Part shown: in pieces, positions 22,909 through 35,484 of the stretch | Layout: the number at the start of each line of letters is the position of its first letter | How positions within the stretch are numbered: position 1 is the stretch's first letter | Assembly (NCBI RefSeq): GCF_002954265.1 | Contig: NZ_PPSL01000002.1 | Span: 682,001 to 746,000 of the forward strand | Reading direction: 5' to 3' | Length of the DNA: 64,000 nucleotides | Source: Flavipsychrobacter stenotrophus | GTDB taxonomy: Bacteria > Bacteroidota > Bacteroidia > Chitinophagales > Chitinophagaceae | Notes under the pieces: generated by a model | What the model saw: the letters and a program-made list of their open reading frames with translations, nothing else | Told to the model about the DNA's origin: nothing | Database searches by the model: none | Program-made: the position numbers and the translations under genes

Positions 22909-24567
22909 TTAATTGTGCTCCAATACTATTTTGTAGCTATTATACTGTCCACTCTCATCTCTTACCTGTAAGTAGTAATTACCATTAGGCAACGCTGAGA
23001 GATCAATATCTGCATGAGACTGATTATTGATAGTCTGATTAACGACATTCTGACCCAATGCATTGTACACATTTAATGTCACATTTACCGGCTGGCTATT
23101 CCAGTCAAGAGTAACTATACCTGTGGTAGGATTAGGGTAAATATTAGCATGTGCCTTATTGATATCAGCTACATCCAACAATGAAATATAGATAACATTA
23201 GACTGTATTGAAGGGCAGTTGATATTATTAGCAATGATGTAGTAATATCCAAGCGCTGTAGGATGGTAGAAAGTATCTGTGGCTCCAGGTATCAATGTTC
23301 CGCTGCCTGGTGTTGATATATTGCTACGATACCATTGCATAGTTCCAGAGCTGTAAGTAGACAACATATCACCTATCAAATTGAGTACAGGTGCAACTGG
23401 CGTAGTGTCTCTTATCATTACAACGCCGGGAACTATGATAGTGTCATGGGCATAGCAGCCGCCATCGGTTTGTCTTACTTCCAGACTTACCACATCTGTA
23501 TTAGCAAACAATGCCGAATACGTAGGCGTACCAACCGAGATAAGGCCTCCATTCAGGTACCATGCAAAATATGGGGCTGTTCCAAAAGAATCAAAGACCG
23601 CCGTAAACGTTACCGGATCTGAAAGACACCCGGGATTGGTACCCGCTGTAAGGGCTATTGTAGCATAGTTGCTAAATACATGTTTAACCTTTGTATAGAT
23701 AACGTTAGACATCACCACAGGGTTGAGCACGCATGTATCTGTTGTTGTCATTACCACATAAACACTGTCGCTGTCATTGAGCGCAGTAGTCACAAAGTCA
23801 AACCCGTTGGCACCGGTTACAGGAACACCTTGTATGTACCACTGATAGGTGATGTTGTTACCAAAGCCATTGGCTACAGAACGGAAAGTATCACTGCCAC
23901 CCTGGCAAATAGAATCAAATACTGCAGTAATTCCAATTGTTGCGGTAAGATGAATATGGATGATAGGAACCGGAATAGAGTATGCTGTATCATAAGATCT
24001 GCATGACGCATTAGATAGCATACGGCAGGTAACAGTATCTGCACCGCCAAACACCCGTGTTATGCGCATACTGTCCTCACCCGGAAGCTCTACATTATTA
24101 ATGAACCACTGATACTGCGGGGTGATACCACCAATGATAGGATACGCCTCGAATGTAAGCGGAGAACCGGCACAATCGGGGTTGCTACCAACAATAAGAG
24201 AAGTAAGTACCCTTGGCGGGATACTCGGTAAATGGTGTATAGTAATACTGTTTGAACGTGAACTGTCAAATATGCCGAAGCTGTTAGTGAAAGTAAGCCA
24301 GCAATGAACACTATCTCCGTCATTCAATGCCGTTGTAAAAAATGTATCCAGCATAATACCGGTAAATACATTGTTTACATACCAGTGATATGCAACAGGG
24401 TTAAAAGAGGTGTCGCTCTGTACTGCGGTAAATTTCAGCTGCGTACCAACGCAGGTCGTATCAGTATAGGGAGGTATATATATCCTTACTGAGTCACGTA
24501 CCTGTGCGTTTGTAACTGATTGAGATCCGATGAATAACAGGAAGACAAGTATAAGTTTACGTATCAT
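22909..24567 (-). CDS. Secreted multi-domain protein with Ig/PKD-like repeats and T9SS sorting domain
   Basis: A 552-residue exported protein. After a signal peptide (MIRKLILVFLLFIGSQSVTN) come four to five repeats of about 90-100 residues with the shared pattern of a Cys, a V-T-F-T/A strand, a Y-x-W-Y/F-I/L core (YHWYVNNVF, YQWFINNVEL, YQWYIQGVPV, FAWYLNGGLI) and NDxDSV, as in Ig-like/PKD-like adhesin modules. The C-terminus (ANIYPNPTTGIVTLDW to LPNGNYYLQVRDE) is a T9SS type A sorting domain. It is probably a surface adhesin or structural protein. ATG 24567 gives the best signal peptide. Confidence 0.8.
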   Translation of the reverse strand: MIRKLILVFLLFIGSQSVTNAQVRDSVRIYIPPYTDTTCVGTQLKFTAVQSDTSFNPVAYHWYVNNVFTGIMLDTFFTTALNDGDSVHCWLTFTNSFGIFDSSRSNSITIHHLPSIPPRVLTSLIVGSNPDCAGSPLTFEAYPIIGGITPQYQWFINNVELPGEDSMRITRVFGGADTVTCRMLSNASCRSYDTAYSIPVPIIHIHLTATIGITAVFDSICQGGSDTFRSVANGFGNNITYQWYIQGVPVTGANGFDFVTTALNDSDSVYVVMTTTDTCVLNPVVMSNVIYTKVKHVFSNYATIALTAGTNPGCLSDPVTFTAVFDSFGTAPYFAWYLNGGLISVGTPTYSALFANTDVVSLEVRQTDGGCYAHDTIIVPGVVMIRDTTPVAPVLNLIGDMLSTYSSGTMQWYRSNISTPGSGTLIPGATDTFYHPTALGYYYIIANNINCPSIQSNVIYISLLDVADINKAHANIYPNPTTGIVTLDWNSQPVNVTLNVYNALGQNVVNQTINNQSHADIDLSALPNGNYYLQVRDESGQYNSYKIVLEHN

Positions 24568-24579
24568 ATGCATATACAA

Positions 24580-24779
24580 TTTTCAATCACGCATTTGGGC
24601 GTGACACACTTTGTTTGGGTAAAAATAAGAAATCATTTAAATAATCAGCAACATTTTTAGCATATCAACAGTAACGGTAAAATAATTGAGTGATAACCCT
24701 TTGTGGTAAACCCATTATTCGGCACCTTTTCTCTCCGTTCCGGCCATTATTTTATTTAATGCAGAGGTGCTAACTTATA
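24580..24779. other. Host intergenic DNA left of the mobile element
   Basis: About 200 AT-rich bases between the T9SS gene start and the proposed left end of the Mu-like element. No coding or clear promoter signal. It ends with ACTTATA (24773-24779), which recurs at 35478-35484 just past the proposed right end. Confidence 0.5.
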
Positions 24780-24790
24780 TGGGGGGTAAT

Positions 24791-24960
24791 TTAAAAAGTA
24801 AAACTAAAAGAATTGTATATATAGCGCAAAATCTGCGCTAGTAGCGGAATACAGCCGTATTTGTGTTTTTTGCATTGGCACTTTAAAAGGTAAAACACTT
24901 TAATTCTGCTTTAATTCTGCTTTAACCGGAAGGGGTGAAACTGGCTGTTTTACCCCTTTT
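24791..24960. repeat. Left-end transposase-binding-like sites
   Basis: TTAAAAAGTAAAAC at 24791-24804 (+), TTAAAAGGTAAAAC at 24883-24896 (+, preceded by TTGGCAC at 24875-24881) and a related GTTTTACCCCTTTT at 24947-24960 (inverted). They mirror sites at the right end. Between them are two direct copies of TAATTCTGCTT (from 24901) and a small hairpin TAGCGCA/TGCGCTA (24826-24844). Confidence 0.6.
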
Positions 24961-25033
24961 GCTTTAACTGGATGGTGAATATACGCCAATAGTGACTTAC
25001 AGACGATACAGCAGCGCACTTTTATGCTAAAAA

Positions 25034-25340
25034 CAGGCTGTTTTAAAGGTATTTAAACGCTTTTATTCTCTCTGATCTCTGCCATACTACCGTTTTCCCT
25101 ATTTGCATTGATTATCAATAGTATATAATTGTAAAATATTTTATTGATTACACGATAGATTACAGTGAGATTACAGAAAAGATTACACAGTGCTGTAATC
25201 TGCAATGACGTGGAAAGGCTCAAAAATGCCGATTTAGATATAGGGCTAAGGCAATATTTATGGCTAAAACGGCAAAATAACAGCACTTGCAAAGGGGGGT
25301 ATAAGCAAAAAAAGCATAGTTGCATTGGTGGTAAAAACGA
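25034..25340. other. Gene-free left part of the element with a GATTACA array
   Basis: No convincing gene is seen between the left-end sites and the terminator at 25341; reading frames here have improbable composition. The stretch has four GATTACA copies at 25146, 25158, 25169 and 25181 and an inverted TGTAATC at 25194-25200, spaced 11-13 bases. Confidence 0.55.
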
Positions 25341-25367
25341 CAAAACCCGCTATAGTGGCGGGTTTTG
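25341..25367. terminator. Terminator downstream of the small membrane protein gene
   Basis: Perfect 10-bp stem CAAAACCCGC (25341-25350) with GCGGGTTTTG (25358-25367), 7-base loop. A T-rich tail is present on the minus strand (complement of 25333-25337), fitting the end of the repressor-side transcript. Confidence 0.75.
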
Positions 25368-25406
25368 TGTATGGATGATTTAATAAAGCTTAAAACAGCA
25401 CAAAAT

Positions 25407-25631
25407 TTACTGTTTATATCGGGTTGGAATGGTCTTTCCAATAATAAGAACTGCTATAATAGCTAAGTACCCTGCTACATTGATAGTATTTGATTTAGCG
25501 GCAATAAGACCAGTGTTGTAGACACTATCCCCGCCATTTGTCATAACTGTAGTATCCATTGAAACACCAACGCAACCAAGAAAAGTGGCTATCAATAAGA
25601 TGGCTATTCCTAATACTCGTAATATTTTCAT
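25407..25631 (-). CDS. Small two-helix membrane protein or lipoprotein of the element
   Basis: A 74-residue protein with hydrophobic segments at about residues 5-22 and 50-66. A cysteine at position 20 (FLGC) is close to, but not a canonical, lipobox. The middle VSMDTTVMTNGGDSVYNTGL resembles a widespread family of small bacterial membrane proteins of unknown function. It lies 9 bases after the repressor stop and shares its transcript, so it would be expressed in the dormant element. A role in excluding related phages is a guess from position only. Confidence 0.6.
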   Translation of the reverse strand: MKILRVLGIAILLIATFLGCVGVSMDTTVMTNGGDSVYNTGLIAAKSNTINVAGYLAIIAVLIIGKTIPTRYKQ

Positions 25632-25640
25632 AAGCTATTT

Positions 25641-26330
25641 CTATTCTGAAAGGTAAATAATATCTTCTTTGTCTAATGGCTTGATGTCTTTCAAAAAATT
25701 ACTAATTGCAGTGTGCAATTTATCAATTCTGCCTTGGTATGGTTTTAACTCTTCAATTTTATTCAAAGTGTGTTTTTTATACTGATTGTATGTAGGTAAT
25801 GAAGGATTTGGATCGAGAAAATTAGGGAAAAAGCTTTGTTGAGTTGGATCATAAAAATTTAGATACTCTGATGTTGCAAGCTCTAATAGTTCGACCATCT
25901 CAGCAAATTTCTTAACCGACTGGAATAATTTAATGTGATTACTATCGTCTTTTTCCAATTCGTACTGAAGACGAGACTTAAGTAAATTAGCGTCTCTTTC
26001 CAACCCCTTGATCGTCTTGCTTCTTTCGTCAATTTCGTTTTCCTGAGCAGGTGTAAGAGGCCTTCTAAGCTGAACTGGTTTCTCCTTAAAGGTCACATGG
26101 GGTTCCTCCGAATAATTCTCAATTGATGGTTCTGCATCGTCAAAAAAGAAAGCAGGCTTTATACTAAATGTGTCGCACACCTTCTTTAGTGTGTCGTATC
26201 CAGGCATTGACTTATCGGTTTCTATTAAAGCCAACGTAGACCGGCTGACACCAATTTTTTCAGCAAATTTCTCTTGAGATAATTTAACATGGTTGCGGAT
26301 ACTCTTTATCCTGCTTGACAAACTAATCAT
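25641..26330 (-). CDS. XRE-family (CI-like) repressor
   Basis: A 229-residue protein. The N-terminal helix-turn-helix covers about residues 5-60 (SSRIKSIRNHVKLSQEKFAE, IGVSRSTLALIETDKSMPGY). The rest is helical and charged (KTIKGLERDANLLKSRLQYE) with no S24 peptidase-like domain, so it is not a LexA/CI autocleaving type. It is divergent from a Cro-like gene with an 80-base shared control region full of palindromes. It probably keeps the transposase genes off. ATG 26330 is chosen over 26378, which would overlap the operators and the neighbouring gene. Confidence 0.8.
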   Translation of the reverse strand: MISLSSRIKSIRNHVKLSQEKFAEKIGVSRSTLALIETDKSMPGYDTLKKVCDTFSIKPAFFFDDAEPSIENYSEEPHVTFKEKPVQLRRPLTPAQENEIDERSKTIKGLERDANLLKSRLQYELEKDDSNHIKLFQSVKKFAEMVELLELATSEYLNFYDPTQQSFFPNFLDPNPSLPTYNQYKKHTLNKIEELKPYQGRIDKLHTAISNFLKDIKPLDKEDIIYLSE

Positions 26331-26350
26331 AAAAATGTTTAAAAAACGAT

Positions 26351-26404
26351 ACAAATTGTTTGTTTTATAAACAAACATTGTTTTATTTTGCTACAAATAT
26401 TGTA
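26351..26404. promoter_or_regulatory. Three-site operator between repressor and Cro-like genes
   Basis: Three ACAA-N1/3-TTGT palindromes at 26351-26359, 26371-26381 and 26393-26403, about two helical turns apart. The first two also border a larger inverted repeat TGTTTGTT-TTATA-AACAAACA at 26357-26377. The layout resembles lambdoid OR regions and the Mu early operator. Sites overlap where both promoters must lie. Confidence 0.6.
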
Positions 26405-26410
26405 CAAGAT

Positions 26411-26635
26411 ATGCAACAAGTTGTCAAAAAACAAAACGAAATCAAGGCTTCTATTCCGTACGGAGGGTTTAAAGAAATCGCAGCATCTGCAAATACTAGT
26501 GTTTACACGGTGAGCAGAGTAGTAAATGGTAAAAGCCGTAATCGAAAGGTATTGGCGGAAATCAATAACTATTTGGCGGGGCTAAGGAATGATAAAGAAA
26601 CTCTACAGGATAACCTGAAAGCTGTAAACGAATAA
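26411..26635 (+). CDS. Cro/Ner-like small DNA-binding protein
   Basis: A 74-residue basic protein. A helix-turn-helix is visible at about residues 20-45 (FKEIAASANTSVYTVSRVVN, then GKSRNRKV), with a short helical tail. It is first in the rightward early transcript, directly before the transposase gene, the position held by ner in Mu and cro in lambda. It probably damps the early promoter or the repressor promoter. ATG 26411 is preferred to 26360, which lies inside the operator region. Confidence 0.7.
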   Translation: MQQVVKKQNEIKASIPYGGFKEIAASANTSVYTVSRVVNGKSRNRKVLAEINNYLAGLRNDKETLQDNLKAVNE

Positions 26636-26689
26636 CAGCCTATGAGTTGATTACTACCTGACACATCAAATACTATTAAATACGCTGAT

Positions 26690-28777
26690 ATGCTGCAAAC
26701 AATAACCATAGATGAACTGAATATTCTTTCCCCTGTTTTCAGCAAGGGTAATAAAGAATATAATGCACTGGTGACAAATCTTTGCCGGAATAGAAATTCA
26801 TCAAAGAAGGTGTGGCAGTCTTATGAGCATCCCGACAATAAGCGGAAGGTGCTTATTATCTATAATACCATTCCGCAAGAGTTTAAAAGTAAGTATGGCT
26901 TGCCTGTTGACTTTAAAGAAGCGAAAAGGCTTATTAAAGAGCGAAATGCTGCCATTGAAGCCCAAACCAAGGATGTTGCAGCCTTGCCTGCCAATAAGAA
27001 CATTTTAAGGGAACTGGATAGGCAAAGAGACAGTAATAGCGGTAAATATATGCCGCTGTATTCAACCTACTGCAAAAAAGATCTTGCAGCGACTACCAAA
27101 CTAGCAAAGGAACATGCATTGCGGGTAGCAGTGGTGGAATATAAGGACGTAGCAGGCGTGAAGATAAAGCAGCTTCATCAGGCTTACCTGCAACTATCGC
27201 AGGCAGGCACACAGAACAATTACTACAAGTTTAGCAGCGTTATAAAGCACCAGTGGACGACAGAGCAAGGCATAAGCCTTACACACGGCCATGCAGGTAG
27301 GGAGCGTGAAGACCTAAAAAAGCTAACTGATACGCATTTAGCCATAATTGAAGAACTGTATAAGCATAGCAACCAGTGGAGCCATAACCACATTACAGAA
27401 CAGCTAAACAAGTATTGCAAAGCTAATGGCTTGCCAGAAGTAAGCAGGCGCACAGTGGGCAACCATCTGCAACAATCGGAGGTATATAACCGCCTGCTTA
27501 GTATCAGAAACAAAGAAGCATTTAATAAGAAAGTAGCACCATTTTCAAGGCGTACTGGTGCGCTTAATGCGGGTGATCTGTACTATATGGATGGTAGCCC
27601 TACACAGATACCCTGTTGGAACAATGACCGGACAAAGGTTATTCGCCATACACTGTTTGTAGTGCTTGACAGCTACAGCCGTAAAATTGTTGGCTTCCAT
27701 ATTGCTGAAACAGAAGACCGCTTTACATGGCTTAGTGCAATGAAAATGGCCTTTAGCATGGCGGGAGCATTGCCCGCTGAAATAGTATATGATAACGGCA
27801 GTGCAACAACATCAGCGGAGTTTATACAGCTAAAAGATAAGGTCAAATTGATGGGCTGCAACATGAGGGCGGCACTACCAGGAGAGCCAACAGCAAAAGC
27901 ACAGGTGGAAAGGTGGTTTGGCAGTTTTCAAAGCCAATATGAGCGAATGATAGAGGGCTTTGTAGGTGAAGGTATAAGGAGCAAAAGAGAGACAGGGCGC
28001 ATAGATGCGGAGTTTCTTAAAAAGGTTCACAAGGATAACGGCTACCTGACATATGACAGCCTTGTAGAGACATTGAGCATATTGGTAAATGCGTATAATC
28101 AGAAATCGACACCTAAGAAGGCCGCACCATCGGTAAAGTTTGCAGACAATGAAAAGCCAAACATGAGGGCTGTAGCGTCTGACCAATTGGCATTCTTATT
28201 CTGGAAAAACAGGGAAATAAAGGTGAGCCGGAGCGAGGTAAAAATAGCAGTAAGGAATGTGCCTTACTACTATGGCATAACTGACTTTAATATGCAAATG
28301 CAACTGAACGGGCAAACGGTAAAAGTGTACTACGATGAATGCGATATGTCGAGCGTTCACCTGTTTGATCTGCACGATGAACCACTTTGTGAAGTAAGGC
28401 AAAAGTTTATGTTCCATGAAGCGCAGGTAAATCAAACGCAAACAGACGTTAACAATATAATGGGACAAAGCAGCCATAAGAAAGCATTTGAGCGCAAACT
28501 GAAAGCAGATAGCAGGGCTAAGACGGCTACAGCACAGGCGGCACTTGGTGACAGCCTAAGCAAACTACTGAACCCGCTTGAAATGTTGAAAGAAGATTAC
28601 AACAATGCAGAAACGGAACAATTGATGGACTACATAAGGCAGGAGCATAGAGTAAACCCGCTGAACGTAGACACCTATAAACCAGTGACAGACAATCTAC
28701 CTGTTGAAAAAAGATATGCTAAAAAGCACCTGCCTAAGAAAGAACTTGAATTAGTAGTGGTGGGTAGCATGCAATAA
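26690..28777 (+). CDS. MuA-type DDE transposase
   Basis: A 695-residue transposase of the Mu A family. N-terminal DNA-binding domains are followed by a HTH region (residues 210-265: HSNQWSHNHITEQLNKYC, VSRRTVGNHLQQS). The RNase H-like core has D301 (DLYYMDGSPTQIP), D368 (AEIVYDNGSATT) and E407 (TAKAQVERWFGSFQ), so all three catalytic acids are intact. A beta-barrel region follows (ITDFNMQMQLNGQTVKVYYD) and a charged C-terminal tail that in Mu contacts MuB. Length is close to Mu A (663). No frameshift or stop is seen, so the element may still transpose. Confidence 0.92.
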   Translation: MLQTITIDELNILSPVFSKGNKEYNALVTNLCRNRNSSKKVWQSYEHPDNKRKVLIIYNTIPQEFKSKYGLPVDFKEAKRLIKERNAAIEAQTKDVAALPANKNILRELDRQRDSNSGKYMPLYSTYCKKDLAATTKLAKEHALRVAVVEYKDVAGVKIKQLHQAYLQLSQAGTQNNYYKFSSVIKHQWTTEQGISLTHGHAGREREDLKKLTDTHLAIIEELYKHSNQWSHNHITEQLNKYCKANGLPEVSRRTVGNHLQQSEVYNRLLSIRNKEAFNKKVAPFSRRTGALNAGDLYYMDGSPTQIPCWNNDRTKVIRHTLFVVLDSYSRKIVGFHIAETEDRFTWLSAMKMAFSMAGALPAEIVYDNGSATTSAEFIQLKDKVKLMGCNMRAALPGEPTAKAQVERWFGSFQSQYERMIEGFVGEGIRSKRETGRIDAEFLKKVHKDNGYLTYDSLVETLSILVNAYNQKSTPKKAAPSVKFADNEKPNMRAVASDQLAFLFWKNREIKVSRSEVKIAVRNVPYYYGITDFNMQMQLNGQTVKVYYDECDMSSVHLFDLHDEPLCEVRQKFMFHEAQVNQTQTDVNNIMGQSSHKKAFERKLKADSRAKTATAQAALGDSLSKLLNPLEMLKEDYNNAETEQLMDYIRQEHRVNPLNVDTYKPVTDNLPVEKRYAKKHLPKKELELVVVGSMQ

Positions 28778-28873
28778 AAAAATGGCGGGGGCTATGTCCA
28801 GTAGCACCCGCCAAACCAAATGTAACGTGAATTACAAATATCAAACAATAACCATTAAAAAACAACAACCAGT

Positions 28874-29707
28874 ATGGAACGTGAACAATTAGTAACAATG
28901 GCACAAACTCTAGTCCAAGAGTTTACCACTAAGAAAAACCAAAAGCAAAGCACGCTTGCACGGCAGCTTGAAATTAGCCAGTCACGGCTAACACAGCTAT
29001 TCAATAACCCTGAAATGCTATCTGAAGAATTGCTTCTGAAGATAATAAACAGGCTAAAAGAAAAGACCGACTTTAAAATAGTTGGCACTGCAAATTTTAC
29101 TGCTGTGCAAAGCATATGTAAAGAAGCCCAACAGAAACATAAGCTAGTTGCCATTATTGGCTATCCTGGTGCGGGTAAAACGGTGGGACTTGATAGTTAC
29201 TACAGGAACAGCGGGAACACGTACTACATGGAAGCAAAGAACACCATGAACCGCAAACAGTTTTTTGCAAAGGTTCTGATAGAGTTGGGAGTTAATTTTC
29301 AGGGAACGGTATATGATATGGTGAATGCAATAGCTAACGAATTAAACACTCGTGAAAGCCCGCTATTGATAATAGATGAAGCGGGTAAGATCAACCATAA
29401 TGTATTACTTGACCTGCATGACCTTAGAAACGCTACAATAGGCAATGCAGGCATTGTAATGGCAGGGTGTGAATACTTTCATGATAACATGAGGATAGCT
29501 GCACAGAAGCAAAAACAGGGCATCCCAGAGTTTTACAGCCGTGTGCAGAACTGGAATGAACTAAACCCGCCAACCCGCAAGGAAATAGCCGCTATATGCC
29601 AAAGCAACGGGGTAAGTGATGCAGAGGTGATAAAGGAAATGCAGCGGATAAAGAACTTCAGGGAATTGTATAACTCCATCACTAACGAAACCACAACCGA
29701 CAACTAA
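28874..29707 (+). CDS. MuB-type AAA+ ATPase (target selection)
   Basis: A 277-residue protein. Residues 25-45 form a HTH (STLARQLEISQSRLTQLFNN), then an AAA+ domain with Walker A G96-YPGAGK-T103 and Walker B LLIIDEAG (164-171). In Mu, MuB binds target DNA with ATP, stimulates the transposase and gives target immunity. It follows the transposase by 96 bases and ends three bases before the next start. The N-terminal HTH plus AAA+ layout is the same as in Mu B. Confidence 0.9.
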   Translation: MEREQLVTMAQTLVQEFTTKKNQKQSTLARQLEISQSRLTQLFNNPEMLSEELLLKIINRLKEKTDFKIVGTANFTAVQSICKEAQQKHKLVAIIGYPGAGKTVGLDSYYRNSGNTYYMEAKNTMNRKQFFAKVLIELGVNFQGTVYDMVNAIANELNTRESPLLIIDEAGKINHNVLLDLHDLRNATIGNAGIVMAGCEYFHDNMRIAAQKQKQGIPEFYSRVQNWNELNPPTRKEIAAICQSNGVSDAEVIKEMQRIKNFRELYNSITNETTTDN

Positions 29708-29710
29708 ACT

Positions 29711-30040
29711 ATGGGCAGGGAAAATTTTGATAACCAGGGCGTGAAGTGGAAAGCTGAAAAGCTGGCAGAAGTAATGTTTCATATGATAGATGGAAAAACA
29801 CAGGCAGAAGCTGCTACACTAGCAGGAATAACAGCAAAAACGGTTTGCGTCTGGCTATCAAAGCAACCTGAACTAAAGGGCAGAATAAAAGCGGCAAGGA
29901 ATAAAGAAATTGCAAACCCCTTTAAGTCAGGTGAAAGTTTTCCCGCCATTAAGGCATTTACAAGAGTGCATATGCCGGATAAGTATACAACAATAGAAGA
30001 GATTGAGCGGAAATTTTGCAGCCATTTAAAAGGGCTTTAA
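29711..30040 (+). CDS. Small HTH-containing protein of the element
   Basis: A 109-residue protein with a helix-turn-helix at about residues 28-52 (DGKTQAEAATLAGITAKTVC, VWLSK), similar in style to phage terminase small subunits or homeodomain-like transposase subunits. The C-terminal half (KAFTRVHMPDKYTTIEEIE) is unassigned. Its start is three bases after the MuB stop, so translation is probably coupled to MuB. A role in DNA recognition is likely; nothing more can be said. Confidence 0.6.
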   Translation: MGRENFDNQGVKWKAEKLAEVMFHMIDGKTQAEAATLAGITAKTVCVWLSKQPELKGRIKAARNKEIANPFKSGESFPAIKAFTRVHMPDKYTTIEEIERKFCSHLKGL

Positions 30041-30071
30041 ATATTAACTAACGACTACCTAAAACACTTAT

Positions 30072-30401
30072 ATGATAGACTTTACAAACACATCAAAAGG
30101 AGGGGAAATAAGCAGGTTTGTACCTGATAGTGCTATATGTCTGAATGCTGTTGACACAGATGGTAATGTAAGACAGCTAGTTTTGTTACACAGTAGTGCT
30201 GATATGTGGCTTAACAGCAGATCGGCATCATATAGCGACGAAGAACTTGGGGCAAGACTTTCGAGAATGGTATATGAGGACAATAGCTTAACAATGTATA
30301 ACCGAGAAAGCTATAAACTTGAAAATGGTATATTCCGCTTGATGCATAGGACAGTACCGATGATAAAGGGTAGAGAAAGAGAAATTGAAAAGAACTTATA
30401 G
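30072..30401 (+). CDS. Hypothetical protein of the element
   Basis: A 109-residue protein (MIDFTNTSKGGEISRFVPDS) with mixed alpha/beta character: VDTDGNVRQLVLLHSSADMW, then YSDEELGARLSRMVYEDNS. No recognised domain, signal peptide or membrane segment. It lies 31 bases after the HTH gene and reads as the last gene of the early transcript before a 430-base gap. Confidence 0.5.
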   Translation: MIDFTNTSKGGEISRFVPDSAICLNAVDTDGNVRQLVLLHSSADMWLNSRSASYSDEELGARLSRMVYEDNSLTMYNRESYKLENGIFRLMHRTVPMIKGREREIEKNL

Positions 30402-30834
30402 CACTACTAAGGGAGGTAGTCGGGCAAGAGAGGGGTATGTGTAATGCATATCCCTTTTGCTTTTTATACCCTTGGAGAACCTGTAAATACACTACTTATT
30501 TACCGTCTATTATCTTGTAGATAGTTTATGCGCACTTTTGGGTCATGATACTGTTCAAACAAATCGCCCCGCCTCATGTAGGCAAGCCACACAGCCGCAT
30601 ACGTGGTGAACCTGCATTGCCGTTAGACCGTTCCATCCTTCGTCTCTAACGGTTAAGTTCTAATTGGATCATTCATATCTGTAAGTTTTAATTCGGGAAA
30701 GGGAATAGGTCGGCACGCCTATTCCTTTTTTCGTTTATGATACTGATAGCAGAGTGGTATTATACACCTGCAATTTACTGTGCATTGACTAAGGGGTATA
30801 AGTGGTGGAATTTTGATGTAATAAAATAACAAAA
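30402..30834. other. 433-base gap in the element, no supported gene
   Basis: Contains an inverted repeat CCGTTAGA/TCTAACGG (30620-30651) and a terminator at 30702-30731. A minus-strand 40-codon frame (30500-30622) reads like protein (WLAYMRRGDLFEQYHDPK) but lacks a start and is cut by an upstream stop, with in-sense fragments in other frames, so it may be a decayed gene. Confidence 0.5.
30702..30731 (+). terminator. Terminator after the early genes of the element
   Basis: 8-bp perfect stem GGAATAGG (30702-30709) with CCTATTCC (30718-30725), 8-base loop, six T. It separates the transposition block from the later genes. Confidence 0.75.
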
Positions 30835-31779
30835 ATGAAATACAAACCAACAATAGAAGCTGTTGCAGCATGGGATGAAGCAATGAGCAGCGGTAAAATG
30901 GCGGAATTGAAACGCAATAGCCCAACAGCGTATGCTAGCATGTACAAGGAACGTTTTGGCAACCTTCCTAAAGGCGCAGAGCAAAAGAGTACAAACCAGC
31001 CTGTAACAACTATCAGACATCAACCAATCACATCAATACAAGCTGAGATGTCTTGGGATGCGCTGATGCGTAGCGGTAAAATGGCTGAATTGAAAGAGAG
31101 TAGCCCAACAGCCTATGCTACCATGTTCAAAGAGCGTTTTGGTCATCTTCCTAAAGGTGCTGAGCAGATCATAGCAGCCAACAGGTCTGCGATAATGAGC
31201 CAGCGTGTCAATGCAGATTTACCAAAGGAGTTGTTTATGCCTTGGGTTGTCCTTGCGCAGGGTAGAACTCTTTCCAATCTTAAAGCCAAAGATTACACGG
31301 CCTATGCAGTGATATACAATAAACATCATGGACATCCACCAAGTGGGCATGAAGGGCTAATAGATGGGGAAAAGCTGATGGTGTATGCAATGGCTCTACA
31401 AGAAGGCAACCAAGAAAAGAAAGGCAAAATACCGTATGATAATCTGCCGCCGGAAATCTTTGTTCCTTACGCTGACCTAGCAAGTGATGGAAGGCTGAAA
31501 GATATGATGGAAACAAACTATGAACTGTATCTGGCAAAGTATGAAGAAGAGTTTGGGGCATTGCCATCATACGATAAGAATACAGCGAATGCCAGCGTAT
31601 TGAGTTTGTATCGCAGTGTGTTAAAGCAATTTCTGGTAGAAAAGGCAGATAAAATGACTTTTGCAGACTTGCAAAAACATAAGCTGGACAAGAAGTATGA
31701 AGAAATGAACCCAGAAGGCTACGCTGCAAAGTTCAAAGAACACTTTGGGGTATTGCCTTACGAAACTCAATTTAAATAG
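30835..31779 (+). CDS. Five-repeat protein of unknown function
   Basis: A 314-residue soluble protein made of five imperfect repeats of about 40-45 residues (near 9-49, 71-110, 132-172, 205-245 and 263-309). The shared pattern is W/Y-x2-L/A-M, a GKM/GRL turn, ELK/DM, an AYA-x-M/Y-x-KE core and an FG-x-LP end (FGNLP, FGHLP, HGHPP, FGALP, FGVLP). Repeats 1 and 2 are nearly identical even in DNA, so they duplicated recently. No catalytic motif, signal peptide or membrane segment. I do not recognise the family. It starts a second gene block after a terminator, just ahead of late-type genes. Confidence 0.7.
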   Translation: MKYKPTIEAVAAWDEAMSSGKMAELKRNSPTAYASMYKERFGNLPKGAEQKSTNQPVTTIRHQPITSIQAEMSWDALMRSGKMAELKESSPTAYATMFKERFGHLPKGAEQIIAANRSAIMSQRVNADLPKELFMPWVVLAQGRTLSNLKAKDYTAYAVIYNKHHGHPPSGHEGLIDGEKLMVYAMALQEGNQEKKGKIPYDNLPPEIFVPYADLASDGRLKDMMETNYELYLAKYEEEFGALPSYDKNTANASVLSLYRSVLKQFLVEKADKMTFADLQKHKLDKKYEEMNPEGYAAKFKEHFGVLPYETQFK

Positions 31780-31792
31780 TTAAAATATTTAC

Positions 31793-32191
31793 ATGGCAAA
31801 GAAAAAAGGTATAAAGCTGTTTGAGCAAATGTCTGAAACAGATACTGAAAAAAAGGAGTCGGTTACCGATGTAGTCCGTAAGCCTGGAAGGCGTTCTGAA
31901 CTAGCCAATAACAGAAATAGGAAAATGGCATGTCGATATTATTACTATACCTCCATTCTGAAGTATAGCTATGAAAATACCATGCAAGCATTGGAAAACG
32001 ACTTTGATCTTTCAAAGATCACTATCATAGAGATAGTAGAGCGATTAACCGATAACCTTAAAGAACTAAAGGTAAAAAAGGTAAATCGTGAAGAGTTGGA
32101 AGAAGCCTTTCCAAGCTTCAACTGGCGGCATAAAGCGGTTGTTTTAACTCCGCAAATTCCTAAGCAGAGAGAGGTATTTATTTTATCGTAG
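31793..32191 (+). CDS. Hypothetical basic protein of the element
   Basis: A 132-residue basic protein. The core KPGRRSELANNRNRKMACRY, then YYYTSILKYSYENTMQALEN and ITIIEIVERLTDNLKELK looks like a helical DNA-binding protein of a kind seen in Bacteroidota mobile elements (tyrosine-rich RxYYYY segment followed by a HTH-like pair). The ending SFNWRHKAVVLTPQ is also seen in that kind of protein. This is an impression, not a family match. It is 13 bases after the repeat-protein gene. Confidence 0.5.
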   Translation: MAKKKGIKLFEQMSETDTEKKESVTDVVRKPGRRSELANNRNRKMACRYYYYTSILKYSYENTMQALENDFDLSKITIIEIVERLTDNLKELKVKKVNREELEEAFPSFNWRHKAVVLTPQIPKQREVFILS

Positions 32192-32227
32192 CAGAAACAA
32201 AATTATTAACAACAACACGTTAAGAAT

Positions 32228-32929
32228 ATGGCAGAAAGAATGTTAGTGTCAACAAGGCACTGGATAAAAAGAGGGTATGCACGCAATTGTAATGCAGCAA
32301 AAGAAGATTTGCAAAAAGTGATAGATGCTTACAACCTAATAGGCGTTGCAGACCTTACGGGAATAGACGAGGTGTATCAGCTTATTTGCGATGCAGATTT
32401 GTTGATTTTTGAAAAACAGACAGGTGGCGGAGCCAAGGTAATGACTGCCAAAGATGAGCGGCTACCAGTTAACAAACAGGTTGCAAAAAGCTTGTTTCAA
32501 AAGCCGGCAGGATATGAAGCTTTGAAATCAGCAATATTAGAGTTTGTTCGGGCTAGTAAACGGGGTTACGGTTCAGTAGGTATGCCCGATTGTCTTTCGC
32601 TTGGCGTGGAAAGGCTAAGGTCGTTTTACTCTTTTGAAAACAATATGTTAGATTTTTCAGCCCAACAAAAAGTAATAATAGAAGAGATTGCCAACGTGTA
32701 TGCTTATACAGAAATAGGGCAAGCGCGTCTAATGTTTTTTCAAGATTTGGCTAAGAGCCTGCAAAAACATGGTAAAAAGATGAAACTCCCCTACGCACCT
32801 TCTCTTATGGAAATACCAGTGGAAGCATTTACGCAGCTAATGGAAAGGTGCATGAATTCTTTCAATATGGAAACGGGCGAAATGCAGGCTAAAGGCGATC
32901 TGCAGTTTGCCGGAGATCAACGTGAATAG
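32228..32929 (+). CDS. Hypothetical protein of the element
   Basis: A 233-residue protein, mostly helical, without recognised motifs. The central part reads YEALKSAILEFVRASKRGYG and FSAQQKVIIEEIANVYAYTE. Position between the repeat gene and the tape measure would suit a virion, tail-assembly or late regulatory protein, but nothing in the sequence shows which. A terminator follows its stop. Confidence 0.5.
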   Translation: MAERMLVSTRHWIKRGYARNCNAAKEDLQKVIDAYNLIGVADLTGIDEVYQLICDADLLIFEKQTGGGAKVMTAKDERLPVNKQVAKSLFQKPAGYEALKSAILEFVRASKRGYGSVGMPDCLSLGVERLRSFYSFENNMLDFSAQQKVIIEEIANVYAYTEIGQARLMFFQDLAKSLQKHGKKMKLPYAPSLMEIPVEAFTQLMERCMNSFNMETGEMQAKGDLQFAGDQRE

Positions 32930-32947
32930 TAGTATTTAAACATAACT

Positions 32948-32978
32948 AAAGGGAGTGGTTAGTAGCCACTCCCTTTTT
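32948..32978 (+). terminator. Terminator inside the late block of the element
   Basis: 11-bp stem AAAGGGAGTGG (32948-32958) with 32966-32976, 7-base loop, T run to 32978. It lies between the 233-residue protein gene and the tape measure unit, so the latter needs readthrough or its own promoter. Confidence 0.75.
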
Positions 32979-32995
32979 AAAAAACAGAATAGTAT

Positions 32996-33244
32996 ATGAC
33001 TGAACAGCAAAAGGCTTGCGTTGAGAACTATCAAAAACAAATAGATGTGATAGTGGATAAATTCAGGGAAATGAGCCATGATGAATTATTGCGGGAAATT
33101 GCGGAATTGCATTTTAATCTGTTGTTTCAAGCAGGTGTAATTACATCGATTGCAAATGATGTAAAACTGCTAAAAGAAGGGAACAGGCAAGAGGTAAAGA
33201 ATGAGTCTGTTTACCCAGTAATTAACACACCAGCGGAAGCATAA
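32996..33244 (+). CDS. Hypothetical small helical protein before the tape measure gene
   Basis: An 82-residue acidic protein (KQIDVIVDKFREMSHDELLR, then IAELHFNLLFQAGVI). It directly precedes the tape measure gene by 12 bases. In many tailed phages this position is taken by the tail assembly chaperone, often with a frameshift product, but this protein is smaller than usual and no slippery sequence is evident. Function unassigned. Confidence 0.5.
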   Translation: MTEQQKACVENYQKQIDVIVDKFREMSHDELLREIAELHFNLLFQAGVITSIANDVKLLKEGNRQEVKNESVYPVINTPAEA

Positions 33245-33256
33245 AAAAACGTGGAT

Positions 33257-35215
33257 ATGTCGAACAACATTATAGATTTCGTTATAAAGTTTAACGAGCA
33301 AGGGCTTGCATCCGTTACAAGAGATACAAATAGCTTGTTAAGTACTGTCAATAAGACTATTGGCATGACTGAAACGAAAAGCAAATTTGCAACACAAAGT
33401 ATCAATGCTTTAAATAGCCAACTTGATAACCTGAAGAAAAGAAGAGATTTGTCGATTGATACCCGGCAGATCACAGCCGCTAACAGGGAAATAACAGCAC
33501 TGGAGCATAAGGTAAATAACTTGTCAGGGCATGGCTCTGGTGGTTCGGGTGGCCTTGCGGGTTGGATGAAAGGCGGGCTAATGGCGGGAGGTGTAATGGC
33601 CGCTGCATATGCCGCTAAAAAAGTAGCATTTGATGGCATTGAAGCTGCCATGAGTTACGGCACGAGGGTAAAGAGTTTTGAGGTGCTAATGGGGAGTGCT
33701 GACAAAGGCCGCAATATGGCTAATAGCCTTCGTGACATGAAAATGAACACTCTTGTAGGTGGTGGTGTGTATCAGAATGCACAAACTCTATTAGGATTCG
33801 GGGTTAATGAAAATACTATAGTAAAAAAAATACGTGAAATTGGTGATGTGGGGATGGGAGATACTGACAAAATGAGTTCTCTTACACTAGCCAGGGCGCA
33901 AACCACAGCAGCGGGTAAGCTGATGGGTCAAGACCTTCTACAATATGTGAATGCAGGCTTTAACCCATTGCAGGTGATGTCGGAAAAATGGAAGGAATTT
34001 GGCTTCACAGGTAAAAAAACAATTGGTGACCTTAAAAGCCTAATGGAAGACGGTGGCATTACTTCTGGGATGGTTGATAAGGCTTTTACACTTGCTACAG
34101 GTAAGGGTGGCCGCTTCCATAACATGATGGAGCAGATAGGCGGCACAGCAGGTGGCCAATTCCTGAAAATGAAGGGTTCGTGGGCTGCAACACAGATAGA
34201 TATAGGCAATAGCCTTATGCCAGTGGCAACGAGCGCAATGGAAGCAGCGAGCGGACTTATGCACTTTATGAATATCAGTAAGACAGTGCCAGAATCATTG
34301 AGAAGCGAGAAAGCGGAGGTAAATACACTTGTCGATAGTATTTCCCATTTGAATCAGGGGAATGAAATAAGGGCTAAACTCATTGACAATCTAAAGAGTA
34401 AGTACTCTGATATTTTTGGCAGCCTGGACACGGAAAAGGTAAAGAATGAAGACCTTTTGAAAATGCTTGATAAGGTAAATGTTAGTTATGAAAGAAGGAT
34501 TAACTTATCCAGTTTGGACATTGCTTTACAACAGAAAAAAGGCAATGTAAGCGACCTAATTGACTACGCATCGAAAGCGGCTGCTGTAAAATCGGGTTAT
34601 GATCTTGGGAACTGGGATAGAATAAAAATGACATTTAGCGGTCAGATGCCGATCTCTGACTATTTTAAATACTTCAATGATGACAAGGGTTTTTATAATC
34701 AGTATGCAAAAAATGCCAATAGTAGCCTACCAAATGCGCAAAGGGAATTGCATATTGCAGAAATAAACTCAAAAGGTGGGAATATTGAGAGTTTCCTCGA
34801 TGAAGTGCAGGGCATGTCCGGTAACCCCAAGGGATTGCATGAGTTATGGGGTAAAAATTATGGTAAAAATATTGTCACCTGGAATGCAGAACTAGCTAAA
34901 TTGAAAAAACTGCAAAGCGGAGGTCTAACCAATATAGCTAACGGTAGTTTCCTGAACTACGACTATAGCAAGTTGGAAGGCCTGCTGCACCCAAATGGGA
35001 GCGGGAGTGAAGATGAATTGAGAAAACAGCTAGAAGAGAGTGGTAAGCGCATAGCTGGGGGAGGCGGTAGGCAGATTGTTATTAATTTGAATGCGCCTAT
35101 GATTAAAGACCAGACTTTCAACGTTAGTAGCATGGCTGAGGCAAAACAATACAGTAGGCGTGATCAAGAGGAAATATGGGCTAGTATCATTCATTCGATA
35201 AAGCAAGCGTTATAA
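33257..35215 (+). CDS. Phage tape measure protein
   Basis: A 652-residue protein with the tape-measure N-terminal domain: IIDFVIKFNEQGLASVTRDT, a coiled region to residue 90, a Gly/Ala-rich helix (GGLMAGGVMAAAYAAKKVAF), then MSYGTRVKSFEVLMGSADKG, MKMNTLVGGGVYQNAQTLLG and GKLMGQDLLQYVNAGFNPLQ. These match the TIGR02675-type domain. Tape measure proteins set tail length and are ejected into the host membrane. The C-terminus (IVINLNAPMIKDQTFNVSSM, REEIWASI-like end) looks complete. Tail genes normally surround it; here none do. ATG 33257 is used rather than GTG 33251. Confidence 0.82.
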   Translation: MSNNIIDFVIKFNEQGLASVTRDTNSLLSTVNKTIGMTETKSKFATQSINALNSQLDNLKKRRDLSIDTRQITAANREITALEHKVNNLSGHGSGGSGGLAGWMKGGLMAGGVMAAAYAAKKVAFDGIEAAMSYGTRVKSFEVLMGSADKGRNMANSLRDMKMNTLVGGGVYQNAQTLLGFGVNENTIVKKIREIGDVGMGDTDKMSSLTLARAQTTAAGKLMGQDLLQYVNAGFNPLQVMSEKWKEFGFTGKKTIGDLKSLMEDGGITSGMVDKAFTLATGKGGRFHNMMEQIGGTAGGQFLKMKGSWAATQIDIGNSLMPVATSAMEAASGLMHFMNISKTVPESLRSEKAEVNTLVDSISHLNQGNEIRAKLIDNLKSKYSDIFGSLDTEKVKNEDLLKMLDKVNVSYERRINLSSLDIALQQKKGNVSDLIDYASKAAAVKSGYDLGNWDRIKMTFSGQMPISDYFKYFNDDKGFYNQYAKNANSSLPNAQRELHIAEINSKGGNIESFLDEVQGMSGNPKGLHELWGKNYGKNIVTWNAELAKLKKLQSGGLTNIANGSFLNYDYSKLEGLLHPNGSGSEDELRKQLEESGKRIAGGGGRQIVINLNAPMIKDQTFNVSSMAEAKQYSRRDQEEIWASIIHSIKQAL

Positions 35216-35216
35216 A

Positions 35217-35275
35217 ATAAGCCACCGTGAATCCAAGCTTACACCTCTTCGAGGTGTCCTGGCACAATGGCTTAT
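35217..35275 (+). other. Nested hairpin after the tape measure gene
   Basis: Outer arms ATAAGCCA (35217-35224) and TGGCTTAT (35268-35275) enclose GTG/CAC pairing and an inner hairpin ACACCTC-TTC-GAGGTGT (35241-35257). It starts right after the tape measure stop. It may be a structured RNA end, a protein-binding site or an mRNA stabiliser; no T run follows. Confidence 0.5.
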
Positions 35276-35305
35276 CAATATCAAAGTTAGCTTTCAAATC
35301 AATTT

Positions 35306-35331
35306 AAACAGCGTTTAAACGCTGTTTTTTT
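35306..35331 (+). terminator. Terminator near the right end of the element
   Basis: A 22-base perfect palindrome AAACAGCGTTT/AAACGCTGTTT (35306-35327) followed by a T run to 35331. Confidence 0.8.
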
Positions 35332-35383
35332 ATGTACGTTTGTATCGAATTTTAATACAAGAATAAAATACGCACCCCTAAAA

Positions 35384-35465
35384 GTTTTACTTTTTAATGT
35401 GCCAACTATTTGAAATTCTCCATTTTAAGTTTAACTATTTGCTTTGCCTTTGTTTAACTTTTTGG
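35384..35465. repeat. Right-end transposase-binding-like sites
   Basis: GTTTTACTTTTTAA at 35384-35397 is the exact inverse of the left site at 24791-24804; with the adjoining GTGCCAA (35399-35405) it matches the left site at 24875-24896 at 20 of 22 positions. Two weaker inverted copies follow: GTTTAACTATTT at 35429-35440 and GTTTAACTTTTT at 35452-35463. Confidence 0.6.
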
Positions 35466-35484
35466 ATTTCCGATTATACTTATA

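Follow-up and report, generated by a model that had tools for sequence, protein, structure and literature searches.

A compact Mu-like transposable element of 10,701 bp lies in a 64,000-nucleotide stretch of the Flavipsychrobacter stenotrophus genome (NZ_PPSL01000002.1, positions 682,001 to 746,000; the window, in whose coordinates positions are given), where it occupies 24778-35478 if the target duplication is 4 bp long, as read in a related element, locus L178. A previous sequence-only reading had recognized such an element at 24780-35477; its existence was borne out, and its limits were refined by a direct repeat and by the termini. The element was placed at 24778-35478 because L178 shows a 4-bp duplication, read from an interrupted gene resembling glycerate kinase (named by eye), and has the same right terminus, CGATTATA, which is common to the window element, L178 and a Mu-like prophage on contig C13 of the same genome. 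The left terminus has a run of G that is also present in relatives. Additionally, a motif composed from the end sites themselves, AAAWRGTWAAAC, occurs five times in the window, always at the element ends and in inverted orientation (two sites on the plus strand at the left, three on the minus strand at the right), against a mean of 0.24 and a maximum of 2 occurrences in 100 shuffles. This combination of ends and duplication is the pattern of transposition. The element is flanked by a gene at 22909-24579 on the left and by rpmH (35658) on the right (gene names by eye), and the site was found without it in all 10 other genomes of the genus in the sample of relatives, where no more than ~160 bp separates the left-flank gene from the rpmH region; the exact empty-site junction was not readable in these genomes, since the intergenic flanks diverge. 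The ends comprise the following features:

24778-35478, plus strand: whole element, left terminus TATGGGGGG, right terminus CGATTATA
24773-24779: left copy of the 7-bp direct repeat ACTTATA, containing the probable target duplication CTTA (24774-24777), read from the sequence
24793-24804, plus strand: MuA-type end site L1, motif AAAWRGTWAAAC
24807-24842: 36-bp block identical to the left end of the C13 prophage, with the dyad TAGCGCA-N5-TGCGCTA; putative pac site
24885-24896, plus strand: MuA-type end site L2, motif AAAWRGTWAAAC
24902-24929: second block identical to the left end of the C13 prophage, 28 bp, from sequence comparison
35384-35395, minus strand: MuA-type end site R3, motif AAAWRGTWAAAC
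35429-35440, minus strand: MuA-type end site R2, motif AAAWRGTWAAAC
35452-35463, minus strand: MuA-type end site R1, motif AAAWRGTWAAAC
35478-35484: right copy of ACTTATA, read from the sequence

Between these ends, the first two open reading frames (ORFs) are found on the minus strand and all others, from Cro to the tape measure, on the plus strand. All the frames listed are open, as had been read for the repressor, the Cro-like protein, MuA and MuB:

25407-25631, minus strand: ORF of 74 amino acids (aa), hydrophobic by eye, no Pfam match
25641-26378, minus strand: repressor, HTH_3 (Pfam 1.4e-13)
26360-26635, plus strand: Cro/Ner-like helix-turn-helix (HTH) protein, 91 aa (LacI HTH 3.9e-5, below the Pfam cut-off; homologs in clade loci)
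26690-28777, plus strand: MuA-type DDE transposase, 695 aa, D301, D368 and E407 (Pfam, PHROG, alignments)
28874-29707, plus strand: MuB-type ATPase, 277 aa (Pfam, PHROG, profile, tree)
29711-30040, plus strand: small-terminase-like HTH protein, 109 aa (PHROG TerS 9e-4; TerS profile iterated over the fetched loci 2.6e-5)
30072-30401, plus strand: 109-aa ORF (ORF list)
30835-31779, plus strand: five tandem scaffold C-terminal tails (two strong, three degenerate), 314 aa; putative capsid-assembly decoy
31793-32191, plus strand: putative late regulator, 132 aa, from the position of its relatives in full phages
32228-32929, plus strand: 233-aa protein; in the loci profiled, its relatives are confined to clade elements
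32996-33244, plus strand: 82-aa ORF (ORF list)
33251-35215, plus strand: tape measure protein, 654 aa (PHROG; comparison with the C13 prophage)

The transposition module of a Mu-like phage, a MuA DDE transposase with a MuB ATPase, is therefore present in the element. D301, D368 and E407 of MuA are invariant in three MuA alignments and were assigned from motifs as its probable catalytic acids, so that the three acids described earlier are retained and the possible hidden inactivation of the transposase found no support at the DDE residues. The tape measure gene is complete-looking, as had been claimed, being an open 654-aa ORF with PHROG tape-measure matches (phrog_9959, 9e-25). No profile match to terminase large subunit (TerL), portal, MuF, major capsid protein (MCP), sheath, tube, hub or baseplate was found in the element (frames of at least 30 residues, E 0.01; lysis genes lay outside the profile set), and thus a set of head, tail, portal and terminase genes of its own, as expected of a Mu-like phage, was not recovered by profile search. 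The reported absence of virion genes consequently stood for TerL, portal, MCP, sheath and tube, with the qualification of a weak small-terminase match at 29711-30040; the claim that the tape measure is the only virion gene did not stand, since the ORF at 30835-31779 consists of scaffold C-terminal repeats and that at 29711-30040 weakly matches small-terminase profiles. A match of the latter to a 68-aa ORF in genome G461 was dismissed as coming from an overlapping frame. A Pfam scan covering 10 of the 12 ORFs showed no recombinase other than the MuA rve core and no primase or integrase match; Sid, delta and psu were not looked for by name.

One relative of the window tape measure occurs elsewhere in the same genome, on C13, within a Mu-like prophage of ~37 kb that has PHROG matches to terminase large subunit, portal, head maturation protease, major head protein, tape measure and transposase, in addition to repressor, MuA, MuB, Gam-like and reverse-transcriptase-like genes recognized by reading. 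The two tape measures share 40% identity across residues 1-325 and 73% across the final 73 residues, the part in between being unmatched; the 132-aa protein is 40% identical to its C13 homolog (9e-17) and the repeat protein matches the C-terminus of the C13 protease-scaffold (20/44 identical, 3e-7). The MuB proteins are 26% identical, and MuA reaches 20% over 223 residues, seen only without composition correction; the TerS-like, 109-aa, 233-aa and 82-aa proteins had no match in this comparison. The gene order of the element is not a subset of that of the prophage, as the scaffold tail comes before the regulator.

The element also shares its left end with the C13 prophage, where the two identical blocks are embedded in DNA that is otherwise diverged (blastn 72.8% over 180 columns, 1e-20). 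The 36-bp block begins ~30 bp inside the element, a position at which Mu has its pac site, and its 19-bp dyad has exactly two exact matches in the 5.4-Mb genome, one in the window element and one in the C13 prophage. The same 15-bp core was found in three copies near the left end of a phage of another genus (G069), whose MuA is 38% identical to that of the C13 phage. Among 394 family genomes, this core was present in eight, lying within phage left ends in the own genome and in G069; the matches in the other six were taken as chance, given that the stretches fetched match none of 54 reference phage proteins. About 3.7 matches were expected by hand, and a reversed control pattern was unmatched in every listed genome. 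When the dyad plus two more bases was sought in viral contigs, no relative was found. Because the transposases differ and the block does not, its simplest use would be recognition by a shared terminase, and the block may thus be a pac site.

Two observations concern these phages in their own right. The reverse-transcriptase-like gene (by eye) of the C13 prophage (G000:C13:362055-363080, L038) has a 53% identical counterpart in a prophage of another genome (G838:C6), and both possibly belong to a diversity-generating element. Contigs C19, C28 and C30 of G069 hold three left ends of nearly one Mu-like phage, at least two of them near contig ends, as expected of multiple transposed copies.

A MuA alignment scan of 84,980 species genomes yielded 73 loci, two of them compact, namely L097 in Sphingobacterium siyangense (38%) and L098 in Hoylesella marshii (34% over 291 residues). 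The other 71 comprise 37 with some late gene in the fetched stretch (TerL, portal or MuF in 25 of these), 28 with none (13 having >8 kb downstream of MuB) and six with no MuB. The IMG/VR database was scanned twice with clade alignments, giving 9 and then 36 loci; in the second scan, the contigs bearing the 24 matches with E up to 1e-36 had a median length of ~10 kb, and those bearing the 12 weaker matches one of ~35 kb (medians by hand). In this way, 26 further loci with a MuB related to that of the window were profiled, the profiles being iterated over the fetched loci. MuB was present in all 26, MuA and GemA in 25 each, the scaffold-tail protein in 13, the regulator in 12, TerS in 11 and a TerS-like protein in two more (the L177 match lies in the flank), MCP and the 233-aa family in 10 each, protease-scaffold in eight, the hub protein tailD in six, a tape measure in five (two profiles), tailU in two and gpG in one. 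Relatives with a full structural block, whose finding would have spoken for deletion, did not appear: TerL, portal, MuF, sheath, tube and two baseplate profiles matched in none of the 26 loci, many of which are incomplete contigs. Scaffold, capsid, tape-measure or baseplate-hub genes were found in 24 of the 26, L191 and L207 showing no structural gene.

For six elements (window, L097, L098, L177, L178 and G922), the sequence available covers the left G-run and continues past the right end into host DNA. The one in G922 measures 12-13 kb and has an intact 1185-aa tape measure, recognized by PHROG match; tape measures were detected by profile in L187, L190, L194, L195 and L206. MCP with protease-scaffold or scaffold-tail protein occurs in L098, L177, L178 and seven other loci. 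Relatives of the 233-aa protein were observed in L179, L190, L192-L195, L200, L202, L205 and L206. In L176 (7605-10945) and L178 (8749-9763), tape-measure-like and hub genes are split in two ORFs each, through either frameshift or assembly error. With the MuB profile, only the own genome and G922 exceeded 390 bits among 395 sampled genomes of the phylum, the next best scoring 163, and the best MuA matches among 50,697 phage records were 24-26% identical. Single-protein scans of viral contigs with the tape measure, MuA and the repeat protein returned no relative; the repeat protein matched in the own genome only among 296 genomes of the phylum, and with MuA, matches were weak and confined to 5 of 146 other family genomes.

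The MuA and MuB proteins of the compact elements group apart from those of other Mu-like loci, in trees rooted at midpoint and with two plasmid transposons in the MuB clade. In the MuA tree, seven compact elements are separated by one branch from 76 other rows (Shimodaira-Hasegawa-like approximate likelihood ratio test 99, quick method). In the MuB tree, 26 compact elements and the two plasmid transposons group together (100/99), and none of 85 other rows falls inside. The MuA tree left out 4 of 86 loci, which have no MuA ORF; the MuB tree left out ORFs <200 aa, L197 (same as L179) and L204 (MuB identical to that of L203). The labels were given to loci found through similarity to this lineage. 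The two transposons, L185 (Pedobacter plasmid pA27BH1) and L186 (an Emticicia plasmid), carry a recombinase, a DDE transposase and the ATPase that groups with the clade, a grouping that hints at a link between the module and transposons; their position within the clade is weak (90/30). Two plasmid MuA relatives, H49 and H50, were rejected for their ordinary transposon surroundings. A cassette present in two genera (G000:C15:14545-17796, L040; G069:C3, L055 13071-16270) holds a repressor with a LexA-like C-terminus and a protein resembling DnaA domain IV (both by eye), a MuB-like ATPase, h111 and Gam, with no adjoining transposase match; it looks like a domesticated Mu early region.

Compact copies at unrelated sites, the sign by which the sequence-only reading proposed to tell a satellite from a prophage with deleted genes, were found in L098 and L177, which align end to end over 7194 bp at 88.9% identity and show no similarity in the examined flanks (the L098 left flank being partly masked). 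The ratio of nonsynonymous to synonymous substitution rates (dN/dS) between them was 0.025 for MCP, 0.056 for MuB, 0.089 for MuA, 0.139 for protease-scaffold, 0.156 for GemA and 0.193 for an 80-aa ORF; a 72-aa ORF gave no value. MCP, MuB, MuA, protease-scaffold and GemA of this pair are thus under purifying selection, which, together with the frames kept open in the window, upholds the earlier argument against simple decay.

A second pairing of compact element and complete phage was observed in S. siyangense. The hub-like gene of the element (phrog_5233) has a second copy, 82% identical, in a full Mu-like prophage of the same genome, and its 83-aa gene is 86% identical to a prophage gene located just ahead of the convergent head genes. 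The TerS-like protein is 38% identical to the prophage TerS (2e-8), and MuA only 24%. The two close genes had dN/dS values of 0.07 and 0.05, with synonymous sites near saturation.

Two proteins suggest how a helper might be manipulated. The protease-scaffold proteins of five full Mu-like phages share a related C-terminal tail of ~40 residues, and a profile of this tail scored 61.9 bits on the 314-aa repeat protein, with two strong copies (5.8e-9 and 9.2e-10) and three degenerate ones (E above 1 each); some match was given by 91 of 200 shuffles, the best at 5.9 bits. PHROG family 11321 likewise matches both the C-terminal parts of the C13 protease-scaffold and the repeats. The counterpart in G922 and L176 fuses a protease-like part to scaffold tails, and that of L179 reads as a scaffold without protease, with a tail score of only 9 bits. 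In the staphylococcal satellite SaPI1, the C-terminal motif by which CpmB binds capsid protein is reported to be that of the helper scaffold (PMC5644958), so the best guess at a mechanism is that the repeat protein would act as a decoy in capsid assembly. Relatives of the 132-aa protein, in turn, lie downstream of GemA and 440-1128 bp ahead of a convergent head operon in eight of nine loci outside the clade with a late gene in view. The Mor/C late activator of Mu sits roughly at the end of the middle operon, next to the head genes, and from this position the 132-aa protein is a putative late regulator. Its predicted fold is helical (mean pLDDT confidence score 71).

Taken together, these findings indicated that the element is very probably a transposable phage satellite parasitising Mu-like phages, the option that the compact copies, the MuB tree and the selection data favour over a prophage that lost its genes. 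To this reading point the architecture, the insertion polymorphism, the DNA and proteins shared with a resident phage, the compact clade and the purifying selection in one related pair. As is generally required of satellites, it is mobile and falls short of a complete set of virion and packaging genes, and virion genes are shared with a candidate helper in two pairs; the left-end block, whose pac role is putative, is shared in the first pair only.

In the proposed cycle, the element's own repressor and Cro would control its MuA and MuB, which, as in Mu, would insert it and multiply it through replicative transposition. Making no particles, it would use a helper such as the C13 prophage in the helper's late phase, and the homolog of the helper's putative late activator may switch on the helper late genes. 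The small-terminase-like DNA binder would be supplied by the element, helper terminase would start packaging at the pac-like block of its left end and, by analogy with Mu, the head would be filled with the element and adjoining host DNA on the right. In Mu-like phages, packaging is reported to begin at the left end and to take in more host DNA on the right-hand side (PMC5977238, PMC5557969, PMC12135933). Meanwhile, the tandem scaffold tails might compete for the helper capsid protein, redirecting or poisoning helper capsids, and the variant tape measure, or hub variants in relatives, might alter helper tails. On a wider scale, it is likely, if less firmly so, that a family of such satellites exists in at least three Bacteroidota families, moving by MuA/MuB transposition, preying on Mu-like phages and uniting a stolen pac site with either a scaffold-tail decoy or a capsid module and with an exchanged tail part, be it the tape measure or the baseplate hub; its members would act as a natural in vivo cloning machine.

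Several observations weigh against this interpretation. Of four genomes, only two (the own genome and S. siyangense) yielded a resident relative of the virion gene in question; none was found for the L098 capsid or the G922 tape measure in their own genomes. The left-end block was not found in the Sphingobacterium pair, and its pac role is putative for the C13 phage too. The TerS-like protein has no direct blastp match to the C13 TerS, GemA is missing from the window element, and cro (dN/dS 0.31) and the repressor (0.47) are less constrained in L098/L177. In C13, GemA and one more ORF stand between the regulator homolog and the head genes, and the predicted fold of the 132-aa protein had no significant match in the PDB (best E 1.6 or worse), nor had that of the 233-aa protein a significant structural match. 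Compactness may also occur outside the clade, given the 28 of 71 loci without a late gene in the fetched stretch; the trees have a midpoint root only, and many loci of the clade lie on incomplete contigs.

Decay of a Mu-like prophage after deletion of most of its late genes is improbable and does not fit the appearance of the element. The tape measure and scaffold tail are indeed phage genes, the shared left end could be inherited, phages being mosaic, and the lack of GemA would suit decay. However, the remaining frames are open, the scaffold tail is multiplied rather than truncated, and the gene order is no subset of the prophage order. Moreover, 26 loci of the lineage equally lack core virion genes, L098 and L177 are 89% identical end to end and under purifying selection, and nothing but the two plasmid transposons otherwise falls in the clade in the MuA and MuB trees.

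Just as doubtful is a phage-defence island on a transposon, whose scaffold repeats and tape measure variant would only poison Mu-like phages, with no transfer of the element. Scaffold and tail parts could be dominant inhibitors, and defence by inhibition of virion assembly has published precedent (PMC11364771, PMC10884400). Against this, the related elements keep a complete MCP and protease under strong selection, and a late-activator homolog would presumably help late expression instead of hurting it. The shared block, at the position of Mu pac, likewise suggests packaging. Hardly credible is a transposon with accidentally acquired phage genes whose movement is confined to the cell, as for the plasmid elements L185 and L186 in the MuB clade, given that genes for scaffold, capsid, tape measure or hub are found repeatedly, in 24 of the 26 loci, and reach 82-86% identity to a resident phage in one case.

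Should the transposable satellite reading be correct, Mu-type transposition would be the mobile strategy here and Mu-like phages the prey. To our knowledge, known phage satellites integrate site-specifically or live as episomes. Among the literature matches listed (titles and abstract starts, with subscription journals mostly outside), no satellite moving by Mu-type transposition or preying on Mu-like phages was found, and the term 'Mu-like' does not occur in a review (PMC11389934). The elements would thus be classed as phage satellites of a family not found described. Since the members carry different virion parts (scaffold tails, protease and capsid, tape measure, baseplate hub), they would offer a natural series showing which parts a parasite must control, and the left-end block that element and prophage share offers a concrete candidate for the pac site of Mu-like phages in Bacteroidota. 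Additionally, headful packaging of a 7-12 kb element would yield long co-packaged host DNA and might be a means of gene transfer that has been overlooked. Mu-like packaging being headful, the flanking host DNA taken into a full-size head along with a satellite would amount to ~25 kb, making the satellite a natural in vivo cloning machine.

Compared with known systems, the element resembles Mu, mini-Mu and Mu-like phages, including the Bacteroides hankyphage, in its MuA/MuB module, repressor/Cro switch, end sites, short target duplication and block near the left end, but differs from Mu-like phages in having no TerL, portal, MCP, sheath or tube by profile. Mini-Mu is packaged by helper Mu; the window element, in contrast, is natural, has helper-related scaffold and tail genes, and its MuA and MuB stand apart from other phage rows in the trees. 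It is similar to Staphylococcus aureus pathogenicity islands (SaPIs) and other phage-inducible chromosomal islands (PICIs) in that a satellite protein would reuse the C-terminal capsid-binding motif of the helper scaffold, as CpmB and the 80alpha scaffold are described to have an RIIK C-terminus in common (PMC5644958) and Ccm, a satellite capsid homolog, to redirect capsid size (PMC8569155). Unlike them, it shows no site-specific integrase in the ORFs scanned and would move by MuA/MuB. The likeness to P4-type satellites would hold if the regulator homolog mirrors P4 delta versus P2 Ogr and the scaffold repeats mirror Sid, whereas no P4-type integrase or primase was matched in the same ORFs and it is the internal scaffold of the helper to which the repeat protein is related. 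Finally, capsid-forming PICIs (cfPICIs) are satellites that form their own capsids, and the ten clade loci carrying MCP with protease-scaffold or scaffold-tail protein resemble them, although in these transposable loci neither a portal nor a terminase large subunit was seen.

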